64,000 nucleotides of DNA from Metallibacterium scheffleri (GTDB taxonomy: Bacteria > Pseudomonadota > Gammaproteobacteria > Xanthomonadales > Rhodanobacteraceae): positions 384,219 through 448,218 of the forward strand of contig NZ_LDOS01000001.1 of the NCBI RefSeq assembly GCF_002077135.1, given 5' to 3'. Positions 4,896 to 37,599 of this stretch are shown piece by piece. The notes under the pieces are model-generated. The model worked only from the letters and a program-made list of their open reading frames with translations. It was not told the DNA's origin and ran no database searches. Position 1 is the stretch's first letter; every line of letters starts with the position of its first letter. The translations under genes were made by a program, and so were the position numbers.

Positions 4896-6784
4896 ATCGG
4901 GTAGGGAGCCGGAATCCTCCGGTCCCCTCCCACACCACCGTACGTGCGGTTCCGCATACGGCGGTTCATGAGTGACGCTGAAGATACCGGCTGGTTTCGA
5001 TCATTGAGACCAACTTCAGCCGGTCGAAGAAGGCTTTCGGAAACGCCTGATTCATGTGACTGGCACCACTGTTCCACCATGGGCCGTGCCCGTTGTGTCC
5101 CGAGTGCCAAGCCCGCGCCTCCGGCAGCCCTCGTTTGCGCAGCAGCGCGGTACGCCGCGGACGCGTCTTGGCTTGCCGCCATAGCAGGCAGCGCAGCCGA
5201 CGCCGCAGCCATCCGTCGAGGTCCTTCCACACCGTCTTGCTCTCGCTGAGCTGGAAATAGCCGATCCATCCACGAAGCACCGGGTTCAGTGTCTCGATGG
5301 TGTGGGTCAGGCTACGTCCGCGCCCCTGACGCAGCAGTTCACGCACGCGGTCGGTCAGGCGGGCCACGCTGTGCGGCGCGACCTTGAGCCTGATATGACC
5401 ACCGGCGTTCGTCAGGGTGTAGCCCAGAAACTTGCGTTTCCATGGCGTGGCGCATGCGCTCTTGGCTTCATTGACCTGCAACTTCAGGCGTTCGTCCAGG
5501 AACACCTTCATGGCGGCCATCACGCGCTGCCCTGCCGCTTCGCTTCGGACATAGATGTTGCAATCATCCGCATAACGACAGAACGCGTGTCCGCGCTTTT
5601 CCAGTTCGCAATCCCAATCCGTGAGCAGGATGTTGGACAGCAACGGCGACAACGGCCCGCCTTGCGGCGTGCCTTGGTCACGTGCTGTTTCCACCCCGTC
5701 ACGCATCAAGCCCGCTTCCAGATAACGGCGGATCAGCTTGAGCACCCGCTCGTCGTCGACGTGCCGGGCGACCCGCGACATCAGGATGTCGTGGTTCACC
5801 CGGTCGAAGAACTTCTCCAAGTCCATATCCACCACCCACGCACGGCCCTCCTGCACATAGTGCTTGGCCGCACGCAGAGCTTGATGGGCACTGCGCCCCG
5901 GCCTGAAACCGTAGCTCGATGCGGAGAACGTCGGCTCGACGATCGGTTGAAGGACTTGCAGCAGCGCCTGCTGGATCAGCCGATCCAGCACCGTCGGGAT
6001 GCCCAGTGTCCGCACCCCGCCCGAGGGCTTGGGAATGTCCACCGCGCGCACCTCCGACGGCAGGTAACTGCCGTCCAGCAAGGCTGCTCTCACGCAGGGC
6101 CAGTGTCTCTTCAGCCAGTCCTTGAACGATCCCACCGTCAGGCCATCGACCCCCGGTGCGCCACCGTTACGAACCACCTTCTGATACGCCGACCACACGT
6201 TGCTGCGTTCGATCACGGCCTCCATCAGCCGTGACACCTCCGCTTTCGTTTGCCCGGCTGCCGCCGTGATCGACTCGGCACCACACGGCCTACCCACGGG
6301 ATACTGTCCCGCCTCTTGGCCCTTGGCCCCGGCTTCCCGGGCTTCTGCTTCGTCGTCGATCATCGAGGTTCAGTCGTCCTAATCGCGGTCTCTCATGTTC
6401 GGCCCTTCGGTCATAACGCACCTACTACGCCCCGCAGGAAGTCCCCTTGGGGGATGGCCTCTGCTGACTTCTCGCTCCGCCTTCCAGCGTCGCCCTTTCA
6501 GGCATGAGGCGAGATCTCCCCGGGTATGACGCACCTGCCTTCCCGCTTATGCCTGTCGGATATACGCCACGTCGTCTGTGCAAGTACCGGGCTTTGACCC
6601 CTTTTGCTGCCTCACCCCAACGTGTCGCCTCGTATCCGCTTCCTGTTCGTCAGGCCAGCGCTTTGCCTCGGGCTTCCTTCAGACGACCAGTCACCCGATT
6701 CGCCCTTGCCTCTGGCTAACTCTTCCCCTTGCCGGGTGAGTAGAGGACTTTCACCTCCAAGCAGGTGCGCCCTGCCGGGCGCAC
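4896..6784 (-). mobile_element. Group IIC intron 2 (complete, 1889 bp)
   Basis: On the minus strand it begins GTGCGCCCGGCAGGGCGCAC at 6784 and ends CCCTACCCGAT at 4896. Positions 6784-6364 hold the 5' ribozyme domains, with no other gene. The 5' end abuts the U-rich tail (CTTTCTTTTT) of the intrinsic terminator of the TonB receptor gene, which is the textbook target of group IIC introns: the stretch directly 3' of a terminator stem. A domain V-like hairpin (about 4966-4933) follows the maturase. The 3' exon is the upstream region of the truncated methyltransferase copy. Confidence 0.88.
4966..6363 (-). CDS. ltrA: Group IIC intron reverse transcriptase/maturase
   Basis: 465-residue intron-encoded protein. 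The RT domain shows GGAPGVDGLTVGSF, VRTLGIPTVLDRLIQQA, SYGFRPGRSAHQAL and the catalytic YADD at residues 264-267. The maturase X domain has LNPVLRGWIGYFQL. The C-terminal region, with WRQAKTRPRRTALLRKRGL and later HMNQAF, is typical of class C maturases; no HNH endonuclease is present. The stop codon lies at the edge of the domain V hairpin, the usual compact arrangement. The first ~45 residues look low-complexity and could be dispensable if translation starts at the Met at 6225. Confidence 0.95.
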   Translation of the reverse strand: MIDDEAEAREAGAKGQEAGQYPVGRPCGAESITAAAGQTKAEVSRLMEAVIERSNVWSAYQKVVRNGGAPGVDGLTVGSFKDWLKRHWPCVRAALLDGSYLPSEVRAVDIPKPSGGVRTLGIPTVLDRLIQQALLQVLQPIVEPTFSASSYGFRPGRSAHQALRAAKHYVQEGRAWVVDMDLEKFFDRVNHDILMSRVARHVDDERVLKLIRRYLEAGLMRDGVETARDQGTPQGGPLSPLLSNILLTDWDCELEKRGHAFCRYADDCNIYVRSEAAGQRVMAAMKVFLDERLKLQVNEAKSACATPWKRKFLGYTLTNAGGHIRLKVAPHSVARLTDRVRELLRQGRGRSLTHTIETLNPVLRGWIGYFQLSESKTVWKDLDGWLRRRLRCLLWRQAKTRPRRTALLRKRGLPEARAWHSGHNGHGPWWNSGASHMNQAFPKAFFDRLKLVSMIETSRYLQRHS

Positions 6785-34769: not shown

Positions 34770-34961
34770 TCAGGCCGGCAGCTGCGCCAGCGTATCGTTG
34801 AGGCGCTGCATGCGTGCCTGGATCTGCGGAATCAGTCTGGCGCGCTCGTCCTCGGCCTTGCGCTGCTGGATGGCGTCGAGGGCAAGCTCCAGGGTGCCGA
34901 CCTGGACCATCAGATCGTGGCGCTGGCGGATCAGGTTCAAATCGAGGCTCATGGCGGTCAT
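34770..34961 (-). CDS. Short helical protein of unknown function
   Basis: 63 residues from MTAMSLDLNLI, preceded by a GGGAG Shine-Dalgarno. It is a continuous amphipathic helix (IRQRHDLMVQVGTLELALDA, then RLIPQIQARMQRLNDTLAQL), probably an oligomerising coiled coil. The in-frame extension to 35102 is Cys/Arg-rich, lacks a ribosome site and is rejected. No family recognised; it is monocistronic between two plus-strand genes. Confidence 0.55.
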   Translation of the reverse strand: MTAMSLDLNLIRQRHDLMVQVGTLELALDAIQQRKAEDERARLIPQIQARMQRLNDTLAQLPA

Positions 34962-35301
34962 GATGTGGACTCCCGGTGATGGACGGGAGGTGTGATGCAT
35001 GTCGCATGCCAAGCTGGAGAATGAACGTCGACTGCACCAGAAACGCGACAACGCGCGGTTCGCCTTGACACTGCAGGGCAGCCGATGACAACTTGCGGCC
35101 ATTCCTGCGTGTTACGCGGTGTTACAGCACACAGGACGCCGCTTTTCAGGCTTCTGGCGCCCGGCTCAAACGGTCATCCTGGATTCCCCCTGTTCCTGTG
35201 ACCGCCGGGCGCCAGATCTTCTCTTTGCACTCGCTGCGCACCAGTCCTGCTCGTCGCGTCCGCGTGCATGCATCCGGCACGACTGCGGCCGGTGGCGCAG
35301 C
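34962..35301. other. Intergenic DNA, no gene seen
   Basis: Contains the ribosome site of the minus-strand 63-residue gene at its left edge. Open frames here (for example minus 35146-35538) cross the strong minus-strand terminator at 35302-35332 and look random. Nothing else is supported. Confidence 0.5.
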
Positions 35302-35332
35302 AAAAAAACGGCCCGGGCAAGCCCAGGCCGTT
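35302..35332 (-). terminator. Intrinsic terminator, minus strand
   Basis: On the minus strand AACGGCCTGGGC and GCCCGGGCCGTT pair (12 bp with one mismatch) and are followed by seven U residues. No convincing protein-coding gene lies upstream of it on the minus strand, so it presumably ends a non-coding transcript. Confidence 0.85.
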
Positions 35333-35406
35333 GCTTCCTCCCATCCTCGCGCGACCGGCCCCTGAATTCCGGTCTTGGCGTGCTCGCGAACGCGTTGCGG
35401 GATGGA
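35302..35406 (-). ncRNA. Candidate small structured RNA (~105 nt)
   Basis: Upstream of the orphan terminator the minus strand can fold: CTTCCATCCC at 35408-35399 pairs with the GGATGGGAGGAAG segment at 35346-35334, enclosing a hairpin GACCGG...CCGGTC (35374-35353) and a CGCG-rich hairpin. A TATTCT hexamer at 35418-35413 would be a -10 placing the start near 35406, but the -35 region is poor. It does not match the 6S, 4.5S, tmRNA or RNase P patterns I know. A prediction from pattern only. Confidence 0.4.
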
Positions 35407-35543
35407 AGTGCGAGAATAGGGCAGCAGGTTCCATGCCATGCCGACTGCGCCTGTGGTGACAGGGACTTGCATGATTTTCGCGGCAACGCCGGGTGACGCG
35501 GCGCGGCGCAGAGCGGCGCACCGCGGCGGCGGACCCACCTCAA

Positions 35544-35730
35544 CGGATCAGGCAGTGATGGAAACCTTCGATGTCATCGTCGGCGGCGGTGGGCGCAAGG
35601 CATGCCTTGCGCGCGTGCGGCAGGACTGCCGCACGCCGGGTGACTTGGCGCGCGCAGGAGGCGCGGGCCTAGTCACCGTCGTGAGCGCCGCCGGCGCGGC
35701 GTCAAAACAACCCCAGCGGATCAGGCAGTG

Positions 35731-35753
<23 letters not shown>
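35544..35753 (+). repeat. 37-bp direct repeats: duplicated mnmG start region
   Basis: The same 37 bp, starting CGGATCAGGCAGTGATGG and including the ATG and first eight or so codons of mnmG, occurs at 35544-35580 and 35717-35753. Diverged similarity continues upstream of each copy (ACGCCGGGTGAC at about 35486 and 35632). The 136 bp between the repeats contain a perfect 20-bp palindrome (35593-35612), an 8-bp-stem hairpin (35615-35634) and a larger stem GGTGACT...AGTCACC (35639-35677). Confidence 0.85.
35558..35731 (+). CDS. Possible leader ORF: mnmG N-terminus duplicate
   Basis: 57 codons from an ATG in the same context as mnmG, encoding [12 protein letters not shown] and then a basic unrelated sequence; the frame is open until a TGA that overlaps the ATG of mnmG (TGATG). 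It may be a leader peptide giving translational coupling, or just the remnant of a tandem duplication of the mnmG start that happens to lack stops. No family beyond the first residues. Low confidence as a functional gene. Confidence 0.35.

Positions 35754-37599
<1,846 letters not shown>

Follow-up and report, generated by a model that had tools for sequence, protein, structure and literature searches.

What does a strong terminator on the minus strand end, when no coding gene precedes it? The question arises in a short intergenic region of the window, by which we mean the whole 64,000-nucleotide stretch of Metallibacterium scheffleri DNA that was analysed. An earlier note had remarked that nothing coding lies directly ahead of this terminator, which is the case: the nearest upstream gene, mnmG (gidA), is divergent and starts at 35731 on the plus strand. 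It had also outlined a small regulatory RNA, some 105 nt long, and comparison with relatives upholds that outline. Element A, as we call it, is on comparative grounds a structured, intrinsically terminated and conserved small RNA gene, with covarying stems, a conserved promoter and terminator, and a transcript predicted to end near 35303. The start at about 35412 (minus strand) is predicted from the −24/−12 spacing of the promoter described below. The gene and its divergent neighbour have the following features.

35731 to 37599, plus strand: mnmG (gidA), the divergent neighbour that marks the locus (PF01134, E = 4.5e-165; synteny).
35303 to 35412, minus strand: element A, small RNA assigned to the asX1 family, predicted transcript of about 110 nt (RF02235 match, own-family model, covariation).
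35302 to 35332, minus strand: predicted intrinsic terminator of element A (terminator search; minus-strand terminators lie between element A and the neighbouring element B in 66 of 100 loci).
35338 to 35408, minus strand: outer stem enclosing both hairpins (arms 35408 to 35398 and about 35348 to 35338; 8 of 11 pairs changed on both sides).
35353 to 35374, minus strand: hairpin GACCGG-AAUUCAGGGG-CCGGUC, exposing a CAGGGG loop at 35364 to 35359 (alignments of two families, pair counts).

The terminator proper (35332 to 35307, minus strand) has 11 pairs, eight of them G-C, a loop of four and then a U-run; its presence had been noted correctly, and the 12 bp and seven U given earlier include two U that can pair with the AA on the 5' side of the stem. 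In the window, element A is found some 320 nt ahead of the start of mnmG, a spacing that differs even between close relatives. As a separate observation, the 5' end and start region of mnmG are duplicated (35522–35592 and 35695–35765, 71 nt, 85% identical, spacing 173), and the upstream copy is broken.

The stretch has a folding energy of −55.5 kcal/mol, whereas dinucleotide shuffles average −42.9 ± 3.3 (z = −3.8), and none of 200 shuffles was equally stable. The outer stem and 6-bp hairpin (GACCGG/CCGGUC) proposed earlier proved to be real; a second inner hairpin, GCGU...ACGC, had been overlooked. Relatives were drawn from the family of the window (f1) and its sister family (f2), which from the identity of their loci appear to be Rhodanobacteraceae and Xanthomonadaceae, respectively; a close relative of the genome of the window is a Rhodanobacter MAG. 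Since an alignment of both families by sequence alone did not recover a common fold of element A, the structure was tested on an own-family alignment. Among its 28 sequences the three helices (20 pairs) were paired in 97.3% of cells, and the compensatory changes that the earlier note wanted looked for were found at 10 of the 20 pairs, with 41 cells changed on both sides against 10.6 in shuffles, counts that come from related rather than independent sequences and so do not amount to probabilities. Most of this compensatory change sits in the outer stem. When the helices were slid by one to three columns, pairing dropped to 49% and both-side cells to 10 or fewer. In a 37-sequence alignment of the two families, CAGGG and the next C of the hairpin loop were invariant.

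To which class does this RNA belong? The earlier note recognised none, and an Rfam search of the whole window at curated thresholds gave no match at the locus, so that element A looks nameless. A local thresholdless search, however, aligned it with asX1 (RF02235) over all 115 positions of the model (1–115), at E = 2.7e-6 and 49.3 bits. This falls short of the Rfam gathering score of 70 bits, which is a database cut-off and no biological feature. The other Rfam matches at the locus (ncS037, RcsR1, suhB and others) were weak, with E above 0.1; elsewhere the window has three matches to group II intron RNA (543–614, 4896–4966 and 6529–6700, all on the minus strand). asX1 reaches at least 70 bits in 46 of 250 genomes of the order, all of them from the sister family, and in none of the sampled genomes of the family of the window. 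A covariance model (R1) built only from the f1 copies of element A scores the RNA of the window at 89.3 bits (35328–35410), matches in 161 of 197 genomes and 24 of 26 genera of that family, and reciprocally recovers the asX1 genes that Rfam places in f2, at identical coordinates. In the fetched loci of both families the asX1-type RNA adjoins mnmG, divergent from it and just 5' of it; of the four fetched loci that lack mnmG, two lie on a contig too short to reach the gene and the others are weak Rfam matches elsewhere. From the RF02235 alignment, the reciprocity of R1 and the mnmG synteny we conclude with high confidence that element A is an asX1 orthologue, by now too divergent to reach the database threshold. 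We file it as such on reciprocity, synteny and predicted fold, and not as a member at the Rfam threshold.

Xylella cells (PMC12189769) and X. campestris pv. raphani (PMC4652430) have both been reported to express asX1. The literature searched yielded no paper on an asX1 promoter or function; the discovery paper, outside the scope of that search, may note a sigma-54 promoter. The present comparison extends asX1 beyond its Rfam range and tests its fold; it also adds a promoter that is probably of the sigma-54 type and, next to the gene, a candidate RNA family.

Upstream of the RNA lies a further conserved feature.

35423 to 35438, minus strand: predicted sigma-54-type promoter, TGGCATG-GAAC-CTGCT (TGG-N10-GC in 50 of 50 homologous loci).

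The pattern TGG-N10-GC starts 27–30 nt before the RNA in every one of these loci, which were anchored on model or Rfam matches, the promoter pattern playing no part in their choice. Sigma-54 holoenzyme recognises a −24/−12 consensus element. Across loci the sequence is mostly TGGCAYG-N4-YTGCW, and that of the window, TGGCATGGAACCTGCT, fits the sigma-54 pattern, its GG (−24) and GC (−12) being separated by 10 nt. The genome also has rpoN, and the element A promoter is very probably a sigma-54 promoter. This conserved pattern takes the place of the −10 box claimed earlier: the hexamer TATTCT does exist at 35418–35413, but relatives differ there (CATTCT, CATTTT, CTTCCC, CTCTCG and others). No binding sites for the enhancer-binding proteins GlrR, NtrC, FleQ or PspF were enriched upstream of asX1. 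In one genus of the sister family (L046, L048, L049) the DNA that separates mnmG from the asX1 promoter contains a perfect box of the CRP/Clp type, TGTGA-N6-TCACA. In a further family, f12 (L254, L255, L258, L267), a TGGC-type sigma-54-like element lies between mnmG and element B; these loci have a short leader and a minimal RNA with CAGGGGG, followed by a terminator, and GAAUC continues the CAGGGGG in three of the four.

Comparison of the genomes thus establishes the asX1 homology, the stems, the promoter pattern, the terminator and the synteny as predicted features of the gene, and the explanation that we favour, with somewhat better than even confidence, is an asX1-family small RNA driven by sigma-54 and acting through its loop. 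Sigma-54 RNA polymerase, with an enhancer-binding activator, would start element A at about 35412. In the folded RNA an outer stem would bear the two hairpins, and transcription would end at the RNA's own terminator near 35303. The hairpin loop with its CAGGGG would then base-pair with targets in trans, a mode of action that we infer and, taken by itself, consider rather likely. The conserved promoter would point to when asX1 should be made, that is, in rpoN-controlled programmes, and the invariant G-rich loop to the part by which it probably acts.

A concrete candidate for the partner of this loop lies next to the gene, about 80–160 nt past the 3' end of element A.

35144 to 35221, probably plus strand: element B, conserved hairpin RNA with the C-rich loop GGAUUCCCCCUGUUCC at 35181 to 35196 (model R2, covariation, wobble pairs).
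35065 to 35070, plus strand: TTGACA, possible (weak) −35 of element B (conserved in copies of the genus of the window).

No clear −10 was identified beside this TTGACA. The DNA of element B matches in 188 of 197 genomes of the family of the window, and a covariance model (R2) built from both families finds it as a single copy per genome in 126 of 250 genomes of the order, in eight families, in some of which it lies away from mnmG. Its stems covary strongly (77 cells against 25 in shuffles). It was absent from the loci searched around mnmG in Pseudomonas, Burkholderiales, Shewanella and others, and nothing in Rfam matched it significantly, whether in the copy of the window or in those of seven relatives. 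As a covarying element that occurs once per genome and has no Rfam entry, B is a candidate new RNA family of the order Lysobacterales. Beyond it, a small conserved ORF (34770–35102, minus strand) is found in many family members; no Pfam family scored above its cut-off there, the best being IraP with 17 bits against 23.2.

Because the word GGAACAGGGG is common to both elements, B was first taken for a paralogue of A on the same strand. That reading was given up on account of the non-Watson-Crick pairs in 65 distinct B stems, of which 67 are G-U when read as plus strand and 13 as minus, together with a conserved TTGC...CTA promoter-like region upstream of B on the plus strand in the sister family and plus-strand terminators after B in 48 of 100 loci. 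On these three grounds, which come mainly from families other than that of the window, element B is probably a plus-strand RNA convergent with A and exposing the loop GGAUUCCCCCUGUUCC. Whole-arm duplex energies gave 53 against 51 for the two strands, and whole-hairpin folding did not discriminate between them. One genus (g26) has a further copy of GGAACAGGGG, placed after the stop codon of the small ORF that lies beyond B and before the terminator of that gene (L024:2475 and L265:2544 on the plus strand; L026:2554, L030:2176 and L021:2173 on the reverse strand, in reverse-strand positions); no sigma-54 pattern accompanies these copies, with which the element B loop may also be able to pair.

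Is element B the partner of element A? In the sister family 25 of 28 loci have 10 nt of complementarity between the two loops, more than dinucleotide shuffles yield, with an A–B duplex energy of −22.9 against about −16; in f12 the complementarity reaches 11–14 nt in three of four loci. In the family of the window the longest complementary word shared by A and B did not exceed that of shuffles in any of 61 loci, and for the RNA of the window itself the duplex energy is marginal, 7% of shuffles being as good. In 11 loci of this family the sole minus-strand terminator lies beyond element B, so that transcripts of A would read through the antisense of B. That B is the partner of A is possible, though we hold it tentatively, and we offer the pair as a hypothesis for the order rather than as a result for the genome of the window. 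For some of the order at least, this hypothesis would make the convergent plus-strand RNA with its C-rich loop the partner of the A loop, and asX1 might be a sigma-54-controlled antagonist of B, either a sponge or a kissing antisense RNA. The full form of the proposal, a sigma-54-switched antagonist paired with an order-wide plus-strand small RNA beside mnmG in much of Lysobacterales, is rather doubtful.

A rival reading keeps the promoter and the trans action and makes B functionally unrelated: the CAGGGG of A would pair with C-rich sites in mRNAs or with the loops of the small RNA sX13. We regard this as quite possible, somewhat short of even. It accords with the family of the window, which keeps CAGGGG where the complementarity to B is gone, and with the presence in the genome of a copy of sX13 (RF02232; at a separate locus, L076), an RNA whose C-rich loops act on G-rich RNAs (PMC3771888). 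It leaves unexplained the specific complementarity of 10–14 nt to B in two families, and pairing between A and sX13 is no better than for shuffled sequence, which led us to reject asX1 as a sponge of sX13.

Alternatively, mnmG itself could be the target of element A, in cis, through antisense pairing with the mnmG 5' leader or transcription interference from the divergent promoter. The constant divergent position beside mnmG would suit such a role, as would the name, asX having been given to antisense RNAs in Xanthomonas. An antisense RNA has no need, however, of three covarying helices or of a loop that is invariant, and the distance from the mnmG start and its variability among relatives speak against it as well; we consider it unlikely. 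It is distinctly unlikely that both elements are G-rich RNAs of the minus strand, separate or within one transcript, whose common motif GGAACAGGGG binds one protein or RNA: the shared word and the 11 loci with their sole terminator beyond B would fit, but the stem wobbles, the plus-strand promoter and terminators of B and the terminators between A and B do not. Chance hairpins without a transcript are extremely improbable: terminator-like sites are common in this G+C-rich intergenic DNA (three against 2.4 expected in the 5-kb region), but chance would not account for the match to asX1, the covarying stems, the synteny and the conserved promoter.

Returning to the favoured reading, a loop-acting, sigma-54-driven asX1 RNA, element A can be set beside three known systems. 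With asX1 of the sister family it shares the full-length alignment, the three-helix fold and terminator, the invariant CAGGG loop core, the sigma-54-type promoter and the position divergent from mnmG. It differs in the hairpin loop, which is AAUUCAGGGG, without GGAA, in the family of the window and AAUUGGAACAGGGG in the sister family, and its terminator loop lacks the GUCGGGGGAC found in the sister copies.

sX13, like element A, is a structured, terminator-ended small RNA of the same order, and its loops do the work (PMC3771888). These C-rich loops resemble that of element B, whereas the loop of A is G-rich; in Rfam searches the sX13 model had no match at the locus, and neither A nor B matches it in sequence or structure.

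GlmY and GlmZ of Escherichia coli are homologous, both use the protein RapZ and are under sigma-54 control. PMC7073468 describes them as a pair of small RNAs, one acting as a decoy. Two homologous small RNAs, as in a decoy pair of this type, were not found here, the wobble test placing A and B on opposite strands. Whereas GlmY and GlmZ are homologues that share RapZ, A and B would be convergent and complementary.
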